Assembly (NCBI GenBank): GCA_012520975.1
Contig: JAAYNF010000116.1
Location: forward strand, 1 to 42,081
Source of the DNA: Clostridiaceae bacterium
Lineage (GTDB): Bacteria; Bacillota; Clostridia; Saccharofermentanales; UBA5734
Reading direction: 5' to 3'
Length of the DNA stretch: 42,081 bases
Shown here: piece after piece, positions 17,961-26,454 of the stretch
Position numbering within the stretch: position 1 is the first letter of the stretch
How the letters are laid out: each line of letters opens with the position of its first letter
Program-made: the position numbers and the translations under genes
The notes under the pieces: generated by a model
What the model was told of the DNA's origin: nothing
Databases searched by the model: none
What the model saw: the letters and a program-made list of their open reading frames with translations, nothing else

Positions 17961-19835
17961 TTAATAATCTTTCCGCAGGGTCGCGTCGTACACTTTGCTC
18001 GGATCTAACAGCCGCTCCAGTTGATAGGTTCGGCTGTTTCTCAGGGAATAGCCGCTGATGGGTGTTTTGTCGGCATACAAATATCCATAGCCGCTATACA
18101 TATAAGCCTTTGTTCCTTGCCCGCAAAAAAACCTGAACCCTTGCTCGCGCAACCAGATCGCTCGAGGATCGGATCCGTTTAGAAAGGCGCCGAATGGATA
18201 GTTGTAAAATCCAACCGGACCGGTCAGCGCGCCGATCTGATCCAGCCATTTGGATGTATCATCTTGTATGCGTTCAAAGCTTGCGTCGCGCACATTGATC
18301 AGGCCGTAGGTAAAGCAGGCAAATTGCCAACCGGTATTTTGCAATCGAGTCACGATGGCCTCAGCCTCTCGTCGATTGTCAGCAATGTCCGCCGCCGACA
18401 GCCGGAGTTCTTGATAACCCATATCCCGCAGCGCCTTGTTTCGATCAGGCAATTGATTGGAATGAATGACCTTGCCGAAAAGGCATTCATAGCCTGTAAC
18501 GGCGATGGTCCCTTTGGCTCCATCATAGGAAAAATCCCGATGCGTCTCGACAAACAAATCCAGAATACCGATGGCCTCGTCTTCCCGGCTGATCACCATT
18601 TGCCGACCGGATTGCGGTCTGGTGGCACATACGTTGCCGCTCTCGTCCAGTACCAGATCCCAATTTGTTCCCAAGGCACGACGCGAGGCATAATAATTCA
18701 AGCCTTCGATGACCAAGACAAGCGGTTTTTTATTTTCCGGCAGCCATAACGTTTTCCGGTTGCCATTTTCATCATAGATCCGATCATGATCGATTAAGAT
18801 AAAATGATTGCCATACAATTGCTCCAGCAACCGCCTGAATTCGCCGGTGGTCAGCATGACATCCCGGACAGCTGCCAGATTCGGTCCGCCGGAAAAAGCT
18901 GTTTCGGCATCAGCAATGAGGGGCAGGATCGAAATGATCTCAATCGGGCCGAAGTATTCAACCAAAACTTTCGGTACGTTGTTCTCGCAAACAGCCAGAT
19001 CCGCCGCAATAGCAGGGTCGTCAACAAAAACAGCCTGCAAGGCCTCAAGGGCGGATTGGGCCGACATATAGCGCCCACCTTCCATCAAATTCCTAGCGGC
19101 CATGAGGAGCGGCTCATACATCGTCGATTCACACTCCGATTGCATCAGGAGCAATTGGTCATAAACAAAACCGGTCTGCGCAGGATCTTTCGTAAGATTG
19201 TTGAATTGCTGCCAAGCATCCCAGTAATCCCCAGCAGCCCACGAGCTTAACGCCGATTTAATCATTGGCTGCACCGCGGTCATCTGATCGAATTCTGCCG
19301 GAAGGTGCCCGATCGCATGCTTTAAATTGTCAAAATCCGCCAGCTGATCAAAAGCATTCCTGACGACAAAGAAGGATTGCGTTCCCCGAAGATAATCCAC
19401 GCATAGGTTTCGTAAAAAAGATATCAGCCGGGTCGCGGAGATCTCAGCCATCTGCGAGGAGAATTCCAATTCGGTCTTGGTCAGCCGTTTTCCTTGCCCA
19501 AGCCGATATTCGATCCGGTCCAGCCTTTCATTGCTGAGCTTTTCCATTGCGGTCAGGGCCTTGCGGTATTTTTCCTGATGCCGGTCGAGCCAACCGTCGG
19601 CCAAAGCCTTATCCTGCGCCAAACGATAAAGATTCATGGCTTGCGAATAATCGGCCTTCTCCAAAGCCTCCTCAAAAGCTGTCAAAATGGTGTCCACCTG
19701 TCTTTGACCGAACATCAAGAAGCCGCCAACCAAAAGAAAGCCAAGCAAGGCCAGCAGCAGCAGCACAACGAGAATCCTGCTCATGACCGGCTTGGGCCGC
19801 TCATTTGTCGCGTTGACCTGCCAGTCCTTTACCAT
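17961..19835 (-). CDS. Membrane-anchored protein with a degenerate polysaccharide deacetylase-like domain
   Basis: A 624-aa protein with an N-terminal membrane segment (about residues 20-42), a helical region (about 45-290) and a C-terminal domain that matches a clostridial polysaccharide deacetylase family. Family landmarks are FGPIEIISILPLIADAE, LNYYASRRALGTNWDLVLDE, FVETHRDFSYDGAKG, TIAVTGYE and the late YPFGAF block. The metal-binding sites appear lost: where family members I know have a DD pair before NYY, this protein has EG (375-382, VIEGLNYY), and the usual SHxxGH is CFTYGL. It is therefore probably a non-catalytic wall-binding or structural protein. The ATG at 19835 follows the topoisomerase A stop (TGATCATG) with GAGG 7 nt upstream. 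It is the third gene of the topoisomerase operon and converges on lysC. Confidence 0.7.
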   Translation of the reverse strand: MVKDWQVNATNERPKPVMSRILVVLLLLALLGFLLVGGFLMFGQRQVDTILTAFEEALEKADYSQAMNLYRLAQDKALADGWLDRHQEKYRKALTAMEKLSNERLDRIEYRLGQGKRLTKTELEFSSQMAEISATRLISFLRNLCVDYLRGTQSFFVVRNAFDQLADFDNLKHAIGHLPAEFDQMTAVQPMIKSALSSWAAGDYWDAWQQFNNLTKDPAQTGFVYDQLLLMQSECESTMYEPLLMAARNLMEGGRYMSAQSALEALQAVFVDDPAIAADLAVCENNVPKVLVEYFGPIEIISILPLIADAETAFSGGPNLAAVRDVMLTTGEFRRLLEQLYGNHFILIDHDRIYDENGNRKTLWLPENKKPLVLVIEGLNYYASRRALGTNWDLVLDESGNVCATRPQSGRQMVISREDEAIGILDLFVETHRDFSYDGAKGTIAVTGYECLFGKVIHSNQLPDRNKALRDMGYQELRLSAADIADNRREAEAIVTRLQNTGWQFACFTYGLINVRDASFERIQDDTSKWLDQIGALTGPVGFYNYPFGAFLNGSDPRAIWLREQGFRFFCGQGTKAYMYSGYGYLYADKTPISGYSLRNSRTYQLERLLDPSKVYDATLRKDY

Positions 19836-19837
19836 GA

Positions 19838-22036
19838 TCAAGCCTCATCTAAACGCAACTGTCGTTTTTCCAGTGTATTTTCGCGAATGTTTGAACCGAC
19901 CGCCGGCAAGGTTCGTGTACGGTAAAATTTGGGTTCGGTGATTCCTGATTCTGACAACCGTTGCAATGAAATCACCTGACTGCCTTTGCGGGACAGCATA
20001 ATCTGGACGCCCTGAGCCGTTCGCGTCGCCTTCACCGGAACCGAACCGCTGTTGAAAACAAGGCCTTTTCGGGTGTCGCTGCTGAGGAAAAAATCTTCGT
20101 CTTCTTCAAGATGGTACATATTGACAAGTGGAGAAACCACACTAAACGCATTGATCAGCTTTTTGCGGTTGGTTTTTGTCTGATAGGCCTCAAGGGGGAT
20201 CCGGGCGACCTTGCCGTTGGCAAATCCCAAGAGCAGCCAACCGGAATAATCTTCGGTCAGATGAACGAACAGGATCCGTTCGTCTTCTTCGAGTTCGAGC
20301 AGGTTTGGGGTGTATTCCCCGAATTCCGAAGGCTTATGGTCCTTAATATCATAACTCTTCAGCTTATAGACAAGGCCGCGGTCGGAAAAAAGTAGCAGAT
20401 CCGATTTGTTTTTTCCCTCCAGCTCCTGAATGATTTGATCCTCTTCCTTGGTTTTCAACTCACCGGCACTTCGCAAGGATGTCAAGGGCAGTTTTTTCAG
20501 ATAACCATGTTCGGTCAGGAAAAATTTCAAGCGGTAATCCTCGATCATCTCATGATCCGACAGTTCTTCGACATCGGCTTCATGTATCAGTCGGGTCTGA
20601 CGCGGCCGACCGTATTTTTTGCTGACGTCTTCCAGTTGTTTGATGATGAGCCGATCGATGCGTTCCCGACGCTCCAATGTCTGTTGCAGGTCATTAATTT
20701 CATCGGTGAGGGCTTGAATATCGGCGATCCGCTGAAGGATGTACTGCCGATTGAGTTGGCGAAGCCGAATTTCAGCCACAAATTCAGCTTGCACCGCATC
20801 AATATCAAATCCAGCCATCAGATTGGCGATAACATCAGCCTCTTTTTCGGTACCCCTGATGATTCGGATGGCCTTATCGATATCCAAGAGAATTTTTTCC
20901 AATCCTTTCAGTAAATGCAGACGCTCTTGCTTTTTTTCCAAATCAAAACCGATTTCCCGCCTCAGGCAATTGCGCCGCCAAGACAACCACTCTCCTAAAA
21001 TGGCTTTGACACCCAAAACACGGGGCATCCCGTTGATCAGGATATTAAAATTACAAGAAAAATTGGCTTGCAGGTTGGTCAAGCGGAAAAGTTTTTGCAT
21101 CAGGGCGTCCGGATCGGCGGATTTTTTATAATCCAGCGTCAATTTCAAACCGTTCAGATCGGTTTCATCACGTACGTCGTTAATTTCTTTGATCCTTCCG
21201 GATTTAACCAAGGCGGTAATATCGTCGATGATGGCTTCGACCGTTGTGGAGTATGGGATTTCTTTGATCTCGATGAATCCATTCTTTTTATCCACTTCAT
21301 AAACCGACCGCAACCGGATACTGCCCCGCCCGGTCTTATAAATCTGCTCGATATCACGACGATTATAAATGATCTCCGCACCGGTGGAAAAATCCGGAGC
21401 CGGCATGATATCCGTCAGGTTGACGCCGGGGTCGCGAATATAGGCGATCGTGGCCTGACAGACCTCCTGCAGATTAAAGGAACAGATGTTGCTGGCCATG
21501 CCGACCGCGATGCCTTGGTTGCTGTTAATCAGGATGGTCGGAAAAGATGCCGGCAAAAGGATCGGCTCCTGCATGGTTCCGTCATAGTTGTCGACAAAAT
21601 CAACGCTGTTTTTGTCCAGGCCACGGAAGATTTCTTCGCAAATTTTGTCCAGACGGACTTCGGTGTAACGTGAGGCGGCATATTGCATATCCCGCGAATA
21701 CTGCCGGCCGAAATTGCCTTTGGAATCAATGTATGGGTGCAACATGGCGCCGTTGCCCCGGGTCAATCGAACCAGTGTTTCATAAATTGCCTGATCGCCG
21801 TGAGGATTAAGTTTCATCGTCTGTCCGACGACATTGGCGGATTTGGTCCGGTTGCCGGTCAGCAAGCCCATCTTGTACATTGTATAAAGCAATTTGCGAT
21901 GTGAGGGTTTAAAACCGTCGATTTCGGGTATAGCCCGTGAAACAATGACGCTCATCGCGTAAGGCATATAGTTTTTTTCCAAAGTCTCGGTAATCACCTG
22001 ACGGTGCAGATGCCCGGGCACCTGTTCTTTTTTCAT
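19838..22036 (-). CDS. Type II DNA topoisomerase subunit A (topoisomerase IV/ParC-like)
   Basis: Breaks and rejoins DNA through a tyrosine. The breakage-reunion domain is intact (MPYAMSVIVSRAIPEIDGFKPSHRKLLY, then Tyr124 in SRYTEVRL). A coiled-coil stretch at about 360-470 and a beta-propeller-like C-terminal domain follow. The GyrA-box of true gyrases (QRRGGKG) is not visible, and the 732 aa are short for GyrA (about 820), so decatenation rather than supercoiling is more likely. The ATG at 22036 has AGGAGG 6 nt upstream. It follows its B-subunit gene by about 60 nt. Confidence 0.9.
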   Translation of the reverse strand: MKKEQVPGHLHRQVITETLEKNYMPYAMSVIVSRAIPEIDGFKPSHRKLLYTMYKMGLLTGNRTKSANVVGQTMKLNPHGDQAIYETLVRLTRGNGAMLHPYIDSKGNFGRQYSRDMQYAASRYTEVRLDKICEEIFRGLDKNSVDFVDNYDGTMQEPILLPASFPTILINSNQGIAVGMASNICSFNLQEVCQATIAYIRDPGVNLTDIMPAPDFSTGAEIIYNRRDIEQIYKTGRGSIRLRSVYEVDKKNGFIEIKEIPYSTTVEAIIDDITALVKSGRIKEINDVRDETDLNGLKLTLDYKKSADPDALMQKLFRLTNLQANFSCNFNILINGMPRVLGVKAILGEWLSWRRNCLRREIGFDLEKKQERLHLLKGLEKILLDIDKAIRIIRGTEKEADVIANLMAGFDIDAVQAEFVAEIRLRQLNRQYILQRIADIQALTDEINDLQQTLERRERIDRLIIKQLEDVSKKYGRPRQTRLIHEADVEELSDHEMIEDYRLKFFLTEHGYLKKLPLTSLRSAGELKTKEEDQIIQELEGKNKSDLLLFSDRGLVYKLKSYDIKDHKPSEFGEYTPNLLELEEDERILFVHLTEDYSGWLLLGFANGKVARIPLEAYQTKTNRKKLINAFSVVSPLVNMYHLEEDEDFFLSSDTRKGLVFNSGSVPVKATRTAQGVQIMLSRKGSQVISLQRLSESGITEPKFYRTRTLPAVGSNIRENTLEKRQLRLDEA

Positions 22037-22099
22037 CAACGACCTCCTGGTTGATCAAGACAAGATTGAGTGTAAGTAGTTTTCCAAGGAGAAATGCTA

Positions 22100-24085
22100 T
22101 CAGCCGATATCCAGCATATCCAGATACAGATGACCGTTCTGCTCAATGTGTGATTTTCGTCCGGCCAGATTATCTCCCAACAGCAGATCAAAGGTGGCGA
22201 AAGTTACGGCGGCTTCATCAGGAAGAATTTGGATCAACCGGCGTGTTTCCGGATTCATTGTGGTTTCCCACATCATTTCCGGTTCATTCTCGCCCAATCC
22301 TTTCGATCTTTGAATATGACATTTATCAGCTCCAAGCATGGCTAGCAATTGACTTTTTTCTCGTTCATTGTAAGCAAAATAGGTCCGTTCCTCCCGTTTG
22401 ACCCGCTGCGTAATTTCAAAAAGAGGTGACTCGGCAATATAAACCTTGCCCTTTTCGATCAAGGTCGGCGTCAATCGGTAGAACATGGCCAAGATCAATG
22501 TCCGAATCTGGAAACCGTCCACATCCGCATCGGTGCAGATGATGATTTTGTTCCAACGCAAAGCCGACAGATCAAAGGCCGACAAATCCTTATTGTGTCG
22601 GGTTCTTATCTCTACACCGCAACCGAGAACTTTAATCAAATCAACGATAATTTCATTTTTAAAAATGGCTTCATAATCGGCCTTCAGGCAATTGAGGATT
22701 TTGCCCCGAACCGGTATGATCGCCTGAAATTCCGCATCACGTCCCATCTTGCAGGAACCAAGCGCCGAATCACCCTCCACGATATAAAGTTCACGCCGAT
22801 CGACATCACGTGTCCGACAATCAACAAATTTTTTCACTCTGTTGGTCATGTCGATGTTGCCCATCAGTTTCTTTCTTATGTTAAGCCGCTGCCTCTCGGC
22901 ATTTTCACGGCTTCTTTTGTTGATCAGGATCTGTTCGATAACCTTGTCGCCTTCGGCTTTATTCTCGATAAACCAAACTTCCAGCTTGCTACGCAACAAA
23001 TCGGTTATGAATGTCTGAATAAACCTGTTGTTGATAGCCTTTTTGGTTTGATTTTCATAGCTGGTTTGTGTGGAAAACGAACTTGAAACCAGAATCAGAC
23101 TGTCTTGGACATCGGTAAAAGTAATTTTTGATTCATTGGCTTTGTATTTATCCAAGGCCCTGATTTGTCGGTCGATTTCGCCGACAAAAGCATTGCGAAC
23201 GGCTCTGTCCGGTGAGCCGCCGTATTCCAGCCAACTGGAATTGTGATAATATTCCAAACGATTGATCTCGTTATTGAAACAAAAGGCTATGGAGGCCTTG
23301 ACCTTATACTCTTGTTTATCCTTCCGGTCGCGTCCGCTTCCTAATCCATCAAAGAGCACCGGCGTGCTGATTCCCTTTCCCTGATCCAGTTCATGGACAT
23401 AGCCCAGAATGCCTTCAGGATAGTAGAACTTGTCGGTTTCCCCGCTTTCCTGATCATTCAGGACAAACGTAATGCCGGCGTTGACCACCGCCTGACGCTT
23501 GAGCATATCCTGAAAATATTCCAACGGAATGATGATTTCTGTGAAGACATCCCGATCCGGACGCCATTTTTGGATCGTTCCGGTTTTCTTCTGTCGCACA
23601 GGCTCCTTGCTTAAACCGCCGATGTTTTCACCCTTCTCAAAGTGAAGATCAAATCTGAAGCCGTCCCGAAAAACAGTCACATCAAAATATTCCGAAGCAT
23701 ATTGCGTGGCACAAGCGCCGAGTCCATTGATTCCAAGGCTGAACTCATAGGAGTCACCGATCAGGTTGTTATATTTACCGCCGGCATAGAGCTCGCAATA
23801 GACCAATTCCCAATTGTAGCGCTCTTCTTTGTTGTTATAGTCGAGTGGAATCCCGCGGCCGTCATCCTTAACCTCAATCGAACCGTCACGAAACCGGGTC
23901 ACTTCAATCTGGTTGCCGAATCCTTCCCGGGCTTCATCGATCGAATTGGATAGGATTTCAAAAAACGAATGTTGACATCCAACCAAATCATCTGAACCAA
24001 AAATCACGCCGGGCCGCAGACGAACCCGATCGGCTCCTTTCAGTGAGGAAATGCTTTCGTTATCATATGCCTTGCTTTTGGCCAT
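22100..24085 (-). CDS. Type II DNA topoisomerase subunit B (topoisomerase IV/ParE-like)
   Basis: ATPase subunit of the topoisomerase. It has a GHKL ATPase domain (EILSNSIDEAREGFG and VKDDGRGIPLD), a TOPRIM domain (YIVEGDSALGSCKMGRD and TDADVDGFQIRTL) and a C-terminal KGLGENEPE block. All Mg-binding acidic residues are present. The start at 24085 (MAKSKAYDNES) has GGAG 8 nt upstream, giving 661 aa. The sequence SSLKGADRVRLRPGVIFGSDD marks a clostridial ParE-like group distinct from the housekeeping GyrB, which should be encoded near the origin elsewhere. Confidence 0.9.
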   Translation of the reverse strand: MAKSKAYDNESISSLKGADRVRLRPGVIFGSDDLVGCQHSFFEILSNSIDEAREGFGNQIEVTRFRDGSIEVKDDGRGIPLDYNNKEERYNWELVYCELYAGGKYNNLIGDSYEFSLGINGLGACATQYASEYFDVTVFRDGFRFDLHFEKGENIGGLSKEPVRQKKTGTIQKWRPDRDVFTEIIIPLEYFQDMLKRQAVVNAGITFVLNDQESGETDKFYYPEGILGYVHELDQGKGISTPVLFDGLGSGRDRKDKQEYKVKASIAFCFNNEINRLEYYHNSSWLEYGGSPDRAVRNAFVGEIDRQIRALDKYKANESKITFTDVQDSLILVSSSFSTQTSYENQTKKAINNRFIQTFITDLLRSKLEVWFIENKAEGDKVIEQILINKRSRENAERQRLNIRKKLMGNIDMTNRVKKFVDCRTRDVDRRELYIVEGDSALGSCKMGRDAEFQAIIPVRGKILNCLKADYEAIFKNEIIVDLIKVLGCGVEIRTRHNKDLSAFDLSALRWNKIIICTDADVDGFQIRTLILAMFYRLTPTLIEKGKVYIAESPLFEITQRVKREERTYFAYNEREKSQLLAMLGADKCHIQRSKGLGENEPEMMWETTMNPETRRLIQILPDEAAVTFATFDLLLGDNLAGRKSHIEQNGHLYLDMLDIG

Positions 24086-24147
24086 GCCATACGCTCCATA
24101 TCTCTTTTTCTTGCTCTCGAACAAAATAAAACACTCTCATCCTTATT

Positions 24148-24177
24148 ATTATATCGGATAGCCGGGTGAAAGTGAAA
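24148..24177 (-). promoter_or_regulatory. Candidate promoter of the topoisomerase operon
   Basis: On the minus strand TTTCAC (complement of 24172-24177), 18 bp, then a perfect TATAAT (complement of 24148-24153). The -35 box is weak. Confidence 0.45.
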
Positions 24178-24687: not shown

Positions 24688-26454
24688 ATGAGACCCGCCC
24701 GGGAATTGCTTGAAGACAAGCTTGTTTTGGCCGATGGCGCAATGGGCACCTATTATGCCCAGTTGGCCGCCCGCGATGCCGATTTCTGCGAAAGAGCCAA
24801 TGTCACCAACCCGGAACTGATTCGTCGTATTCACCAGGAATATCTGGCCGCCGGCGCACGCTTGTTGCGCACCAATACATTTGCCGCTGCGGCATTGTTC
24901 GGTATGAGCGACCCGGCCGGCTTGAAAGAAGTCGTGTCCGGCGGATTTAAATTGGCCGTTGCCTGTGCCGGAAATCTGGCCTTTGTCGCTGCCGATTGCG
25001 GACCGGCTTACAATTTGGATCCTGAAGCAGCCGTGGCGGCCGAGCGCATCGTGGTCGATACTTTTCTTGAAAACGGTGCCGAGTTGTTTCTTTTTGAAAC
25101 TTATGCTGACCCGGATGAATTCCTTGGACAATGTCGGTATATTAAAAACGCCGAACCTTCTGCTGTCATTATCGCGTCCTTTACCTTGTCGGCTGATGGC
25201 TATACCCGCAAGGGACTCTCGATCTCCCATCTGTCCGATGTGATGCAAAACTGCGACTTGATCGACATCTGGGGTTTCAATTGCGGGGTGGGTCCGACGC
25301 ACTTGGCTGAGCAGCTTAAACGACTGCCGGTGGATGGCAAGCCCCTTACGGTTATGCCCAACAGCGGTTACCCCAAACAGGAAAACAGTCGGTTGGTTTT
25401 CGTTTCATCGCCGGACTATTTCGCTCAGACAACAGCCGAGCTTGTCACCTGCCGCACCCGCCTCATTGGTGGCTGTTGCGGCACAACACCTCACCACATT
25501 CATGCCTTGCGCCAAGCCTTGGTCGGTGTCGAGCCTGCAAAAGCCCATCCTCAAGCATCGATCCGGCCACCGATCCTTCCCCAAGTTCCTGCCCACCCGC
25601 GGCTGGTTGACGGTTTGACGCAAAACAAATTCACGATCGCTGTCGAGCTCAATCCTCCCCGAACCAGTCAAATGGAACCGCTGATTGCTGCGGCCCGCCA
25701 ACTTCAATTGGCCGGTGTTGATACCATAACGGTGACCGATTCGCCCCTCGCCCGTGTCAAAATGGATTCGGTTTGCTGCGCCTCTCGCTTGGCCAGAGAG
25801 ACCGGCCTGCCGATCTTGCCTCATATTTGCTGTCGAGATCGAAACGTTAATGCCCTTCGTAGCAGTTTGTTGGCTGCCCACAGCGAAGGAATACGCCAGA
25901 TTCTTGCTATCACCGGCGATGCCATACCGGAATCAGATAAAGGCTTTGTAAAACCTGTCTTTAATCTTGGCAGCCTCGGCTTAATTCAACTCATCCAACA
26001 AATGAATCAGGACGAGTTCGCCGACGATCCTATGCTGATCGCCGCCGCACTGGATCCGGGAGTTGCCAAACCGGAAGTGGAGCTTTCCAGAGCAATGAAA
26101 AAAATAGAGGCCGGCGCCACCTTGTTTTTGACTCAGCCGGTTTATGATACCCGGGGCTTGTCGTTGATCCGCCAGGTCCGCCGGACGGGTGGCAAAGTTT
26201 TAATTGGTCTGTTGCCTCCGATCAGCTATCGTAACGCGCAATTTCTAAGTCAGGAAGTTCCCGGTATTCGCATCCCGGCCGAGCTGTTGCGCCGTTTTCA
26301 TCCGGACATGACCCGCGAAGCCGCTGTCGAAGCCGGCCTTGAAGCCACCGTGGAAGTCGCCCGGATCATGCAGCCGGATGCCGACGGATTTTATTTGATT
26401 GCGCCATTTAATCGCGCGGATATCATGGTTCAACTTCATGAAAGGCTGCGCTAG
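24688..26454 (+). CDS. Bifunctional homocysteine S-methyltransferase / methylenetetrahydrofolate reductase
   Basis: Two-domain enzyme like Bacillus YitJ, linking one-carbon and methionine metabolism. Residues 1-285 are a homocysteine methyltransferase barrel (VLADGAMGTYY near residue 15), with the zinc cysteines in WGFNCGVG and LIGGCCGTTPHH. Residues about 315-588 form a MetF-type flavin barrel (AVELNPPRTSQMEPL, TVTDSPLARVKMDS, LAITGD and FLTQPVYD). The start has GGAGG 10 nt upstream. The separate cobalamin-binding domains of MetH are absent, so methionine synthesis must be completed by a protein encoded elsewhere, or the domain uses another methyl donor. It is a single gene, convergent with the PHP gene (16-nt gap). 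Confidence 0.92.
   Translation: MRPARELLEDKLVLADGAMGTYYAQLAARDADFCERANVTNPELIRRIHQEYLAAGARLLRTNTFAAAALFGMSDPAGLKEVVSGGFKLAVACAGNLAFVAADCGPAYNLDPEAAVAAERIVVDTFLENGAELFLFETYADPDEFLGQCRYIKNAEPSAVIIASFTLSADGYTRKGLSISHLSDVMQNCDLIDIWGFNCGVGPTHLAEQLKRLPVDGKPLTVMPNSGYPKQENSRLVFVSSPDYFAQTTAELVTCRTRLIGGCCGTTPHHIHALRQALVGVEPAKAHPQASIRPPILPQVPAHPRLVDGLTQNKFTIAVELNPPRTSQMEPLIAAARQLQLAGVDTITVTDSPLARVKMDSVCCASRLARETGLPILPHICCRDRNVNALRSSLLAAHSEGIRQILAITGDAIPESDKGFVKPVFNLGSLGLIQLIQQMNQDEFADDPMLIAAALDPGVAKPEVELSRAMKKIEAGATLFLTQPVYDTRGLSLIRQVRRTGGKVLIGLLPPISYRNAQFLSQEVPGIRIPAELLRRFHPDMTREAAVEAGLEATVEVARIMQPDADGFYLIAPFNRADIMVQLHERLR

Follow-up and report, generated by a model that had tools for sequence, protein, structure and literature searches.

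PplD from Streptococcus pyogenes is a CE4 protein of the NodB2 type (6dq3), and its description (PMC8807736) presents an active zinc enzyme with an N-terminal transmembrane helix and an external CE4 barrel, in which D168, H223 and H227 are the zinc ligands, H105 is the acid/base and D167 is held by R302. CE4 proteins with no measurable deacetylase activity have also been described, such as BA0330 and BA0331 of Bacillus anthracis, lipoproteins which retain the Asp-His-His triad, bind peptidoglycan and stabilise the wall (PMC4505593), and Ba0150 (4M1B) and EcCDA (2VYO) are catalytically inert or probably inactive CE4 proteins which have lost active-site residues and kept the fold, EcCDA being without both metal His (PMC10967932). 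In the window analysed here, which is the whole stretch of 42,081 nucleotides, a gene referred to below as q follows parE and parC (Table 1), the same order as in topoisomerase IV operons, where ParC is also without a GyrA box. Its product is, on the predicted model, a single-pass membrane protein in which a TPR-like segment is followed by a C-terminal domain of CE4/NodB deacetylase fold. The arrangement of helix and barrel is that of PplD, and the differences from PplD are that the five matching catalytic positions are replaced in q and that PplD lacks a TPR-like segment and, in the accessible part of the source, is not reported to lie beside a topoisomerase (PMC8807736). Unlike q, BA0330 and BA0331 are not part of a topoisomerase operon (PMC4505593), while Ba0150 and EcCDA, which share with q the loss of active-site residues in a retained fold, belong to other CE4 branches for which order-wide operon linkage was not described (PMC10967932).

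Table 1. Positions of the features discussed (window coordinates unless a locus is named)
Feature	Position	Strand	Remark
Pseudo-deacetylase coding sequence (q)	17961..19835	minus	624 aa; ORF list and sequence
N-terminal tail, short, basic, residues 1-20	19776..19835	minus	predicted cytoplasmic; DWQV motif
Single transmembrane helix, about residues 20-42	19710..19778	minus	predicted from hydrophobicity; model helix 16-59
TPR-like helical segment, residues 60-290	18966..19658	minus	model; Foldseek TPR matches; weak TPR Pfam matches
Predicted CE4/NodB-fold domain without catalytic residues, residues 291-624	17964..18965	minus	Foldseek PplD 6dq3
L304, position of PplD catalytic H105	18924..18926	minus	alignment of relatives
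E377-G378, replacing Asp pair (PplD D167-D168)	18702..18707	minus	sequence and alignment
F508-TYG-L512, replacing HxxxH (PplD H223, H227)	18300..18314	minus	alignment; profile search with AngCDA 7bly
ParC-like topoisomerase A subunit, no GyrA box	19838..22039	minus	stop 2 nt ahead of q start
ParE-like topoisomerase B subunit	22100..24124	minus	ORF list and family profiles
Promoter-like site upstream of parE, TTCACT-17-TATAAT, 10 of 12	24148..24176	minus	consensus match only
Intact-motif paralogs in f3 genomes	L053:5838-7352, L054:5695-7173, L055:5994-7529	minus	

The coding sequence of q starts with ATG at 19835, with an alternative TTG start 6 nt upstream, and ends with the stop at 17961-17963; the orientation of the tail was inferred from the basic residues ahead of the helix. 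The initial annotation had claimed that a deacetylase-family fold is kept over more than 300 residues and had proposed a structure prediction, and the AlphaFold2 model, which was built on a 47-sequence ortholog alignment (mean pLDDT 91.4, pTM 0.79), agreed with it by giving a CE4-type barrel at about residues 291-624. PplD was the best solved match, as both chains of 6dq3 stood at the top of the Foldseek results (E 2.0e-05 and 4.3e-05, TM 0.61 to 0.64 on the target, probability 1.00), and the next matches were TPR proteins; weak TPR Pfam matches were found in several members of the q family. The similarity of q to Pfam Polysacc_deac_1 (PF01522) is marginal, with an E value of 0.057 and 13.8 bits in comparison to the curated cut-off of 23.1, and the same profile was matched at E <= 0.01 in 8 of the 47 orthologs; the CE4 assignment therefore rests on the relatives and the predicted fold. 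Sequence searches of solved structures matched CE4 enzymes in the MT2 region only, and in the profile alignment to the solved chitin deacetylase AngCDA (7bly) the MT2 columns of q fall on SHTYDH. L134, a relative which is unlinked and keeps its motifs, has the same predicted layout as q, so the architecture is probably older than the loss of catalysis; for the L134 model no CE4 match at E <= 0.001 was found by Foldseek, and its CE4 assignment is based on motifs and Pfam.

The correspondence between q and PplD was inferred from motif order and spacing, and for MT2 also from direct profile alignment. The window protein carries L304, E377, G378, F508, L512 and K590 at the CE4 columns, and all five positions which match PplD catalytic residues are replaced, with G378, F508 and L512 in place of the Asp-His-His metal triad (D168, H223 and H227) and, by motif order and spacing, L304 and E377 in place of the catalytic His and Asp (H105 and D167). 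The replacement of the Asp pair by EG and of SHxxGH by CFTYGL, as read in the initial annotation, was confirmed as E377-G378 and C507-F508-T509-Y510-G511-L512, and the alignment indicates beyond this that the His matching PplD H105 is lost as well, being Leu in the window and Arg/Lys in most orthologs. The alignment with relatives that had been suggested at the outset showed that His is missing from 508 and 512 in all topoisomerase-linked proteins with letters there (0/48 with His at either position), in comparison to 100% for H508, H512 and R590, 98% for H304 and D377, and 84% for D378 (otherwise Asn) in the 43 unlinked motif-bearing relatives. These unlinked relatives share with PplD (PMC8807736) the motif order of N-terminal His, Asp pair, HxxxH and late Arg.

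Of 58 close relatives, 51 have a homolog of q, as do 171 of the 188 genomes searched from the window's order, including 101 of 106 high-quality ones. Relatives were present in many families of a class-wide draw, and among 300 genomes drawn from the phylum 2 had matches, one of them being the window's own genome. None of the 41 relatives outside the order adjoins ParE-ParC, and 40 of them keep both metal His. ParE-ParC is widespread in the class (69 of 118), and outside the order no related or consistent gene was found behind parC in the 20 genomes read, whereas here a pseudo-deacetylase takes that place. A maximum-likelihood tree made with the catalytic columns left out sets the linked proteins apart from the others at a branch with SH-aLRT 99, which indicates a single clade of one origin that has been inherited vertically. 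Three f3 genomes carry, besides the linked q, a paralog with intact motifs (SVDDVNYY, FASHSWGH) away from the topoisomerase; these paralogs fall with proteins of other orders, and their being recent duplicates of q was ruled out because the tree gives two separate lineages. Two further observations concern relatives elsewhere. The one exception among the 41 proteins outside the order, from genome G281 (L159:5147-6373, plus strand) and not beside ParE-ParC, has lost both MT2 His (ACNTYGNI) in what looks like a second, independent loss, and four full-length relatives of family f42 (L155, L156, L169 and L170) have Asp-Asn for the Asp pair with HxxxH intact, their activity being uncertain. No association with sporulation was found, since Spo0A-type domains occurred in nearly all relatives sampled, whether or not they had q.

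The main selection comparison was made between the window and a congener (L032, 90% amino acid identity). The dN/dS of q was 0.103 overall, 0.052 for the CE4 domain and 0.128 for the TPR-like segment, in comparison to 0.055 for ParC and 0.042 for ParE, and the MT1 and MT2 regions showed zero amino acid changes. Across ten close pairs the dN/dS of q was 0.05 to 0.17 with full-length frames. These values show strong purifying selection on the dead CE4 domain, whose rate of change between congeners is as low as that of ParC.

No GyrA box is present in the A subunit preceding q, whereas a GyrA encoded elsewhere in the genome (C168) carries one, QHRGGRG, and the partner subunit is accordingly topoisomerase IV-like rather than gyrase. 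It falls well short of all the NCBIfam equivalog cut-offs, with 425.7 in comparison to 813.25 for parC_Gpos and 551.9 in comparison to 877 for gyrA; taken together with the missing box and the separate GyrA, the most fitting identity is that of a divergent topoisomerase IV, a type IIA enzyme and, by its family, a decatenase. The window also holds, at 24688-26454, homocysteine S-methyltransferase and methylenetetrahydrofolate reductase domains fused in one ORF.

The reading we moderately favour is that q is a pseudo-deacetylase kept for a non-catalytic envelope role and made together with the decatenase. A CE4/NodB domain of the PplD type would have lost metal and catalysis in the common ancestor of one Clostridia order, and q would since have been retained as the last gene of the ParE-ParC operon for a non-enzymatic job. 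The bulk of the product would lie outside the membrane and may bind wall glycan or a partner, glycan binding being plausible by analogy to BA0330/BA0331, and coupling to ParC may set the dose or timing of q with the decatenase. The most likely purpose would be that of an envelope or septum factor made alongside the enzyme that separates sister chromosomes. Selection for a non-catalytic role had been suggested in the initial annotation and is supported by the clade-wide loss of His, the low dN/dS of the CE4 domain and the finding of no replacement site.

The coupling of q to the A subunit, the other part of that annotation, holds with the 2-nt spacing in the window and with a linkage that extends through four families of the order. 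A topoisomerase stands ahead of q in 58 of 58 order genomes with readable gene order, and wherever ParC lies on the same piece, in 47 of 47 order loci, q comes immediately behind it with a gap of -11 to +69 nt (median 1). Another set of order loci, 11 of them from new genomes, agrees throughout (34 of 34); chance adjacency was ruled out by this order-wide linkage. A different account is that q acts in the envelope without catalysis and has no functional connection to the topoisomerase, the two sharing a growth-linked transcript in slowly rearranging genomes. AspK, HAD and EF-P also stay together near q in families f1 and f3 and in part of f4, and with gene order so conservative, some of the linkage may reflect inertia. 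Moreover, ParE-ParC is kept without q in four f4 genomes (G028, G036, G041 and G052), where genes other than q come after ParC (L096 to L099) and a full-sensitivity profile search near ParE-ParC found no divergent copy. ParE-ParC thus does not need q, and the partnership is persistent but non-obligate. Against the account without a tie, however, 43 of the 47 loci, spread over four families, keep the gap within -11 to +10 nt, and in family f2 the genes AspK, HAD and EF-P are replaced by others with the ParE-ParC-q trio intact; we regard it as possible but rather unlikely. Three products are encoded downstream of the trio in f2 (loci L067, L068, L069, L071 and L036): one small and conserved (about 150 aa), one sirtuin-like, and another conserved one of about 600 aa.

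It is also conceivable that q serves topoisomerase IV as its dedicated transmembrane adaptor. An aromatic-x-[VI] motif of the tail would then dock ParC/ParE or a segregation partner and the dead CE4 domain would read septal wall glycan, so that decatenation would be coupled to where, or at which stage, the cell divides. An aromatic residue followed by Val/Ile (adjacent or one residue apart), about 6 to 9 residues in, was found in 30 of 48 linked tails, in comparison to a mean of 10.5 and a maximum of 19 by shuffling, and in 3 of 42 tails of unlinked relatives, in comparison to 4.5 by shuffling; in these counts start codons were chosen by rule and relatedness was ignored. The variants include LYV, IYI, YTI, YKV and WQV, the last being part of DWQV in the window, and some linked members have no such motif. 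A docking peptide for a cytoplasmic partner fits these counts and is a speculative lead, and the adaptor as a whole we consider doubtful.

Pseudoenzymes often regulate active enzymes by heterodimerising with them or shielding their substrate, and q could act in this manner on an active deacetylase or another wall enzyme. The genome does encode, besides q, two proteins which exceed the PF01522 cut-off (G000:C2 and C147), but no conserved deacetylase gene accompanies q and most of its orthologs sit in genomes without an intact close paralog, which makes such a regulator improbable.

A rebuilt active site, with other metal ligands or metal-free chemistry, could be read from the new conserved Arg/Lys at position 304 (47 of 50 linked proteins), Glu or Asp at 377 (48/50) and Arg/Lys at 590 (40/48). 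The window protein, however, has Leu at 304, and positions 378, 508 and 512 vary freely among the linked proteins. Alternative metal ligands had been named at the outset as what would speak against a pseudo-deacetylase, and in the column statistics the linked clade had gained no conserved His or Cys, which makes a replacement metal site unlikely, and we hold the rebuilt enzyme as a whole to be very improbable. Decay of q after the loss of its active site, for which one could point to catalytic residues that are gone and vary between lineages, was ruled out by the dN/dS values, and the full-length frames and the near-universal presence in high-quality order genomes also oppose it.

Pseudoenzymes of the CE4 type as such are known, and order-wide fixation of one behind a topoisomerase is apparently unreported in the open literature searched, as our search of open-access literature found no pseudo-deacetylase in a topoisomerase operon. 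Inactive CE4 proteins were known singly, whereas here an entire dead clade has become fixed throughout one order beside a single chromosome-untangling enzyme, in contrast to relatives elsewhere which look active and are unlinked to topoisomerase. If the link is functional, it would offer a natural experiment in the change of a catalytic domain into a binding module and a route by which the envelope is coordinated with chromosome segregation in Clostridia. The conservation of q behind ParE-ParC suggests that the envelope and the untangling of chromosomes are connected in a non-enzymatic way.
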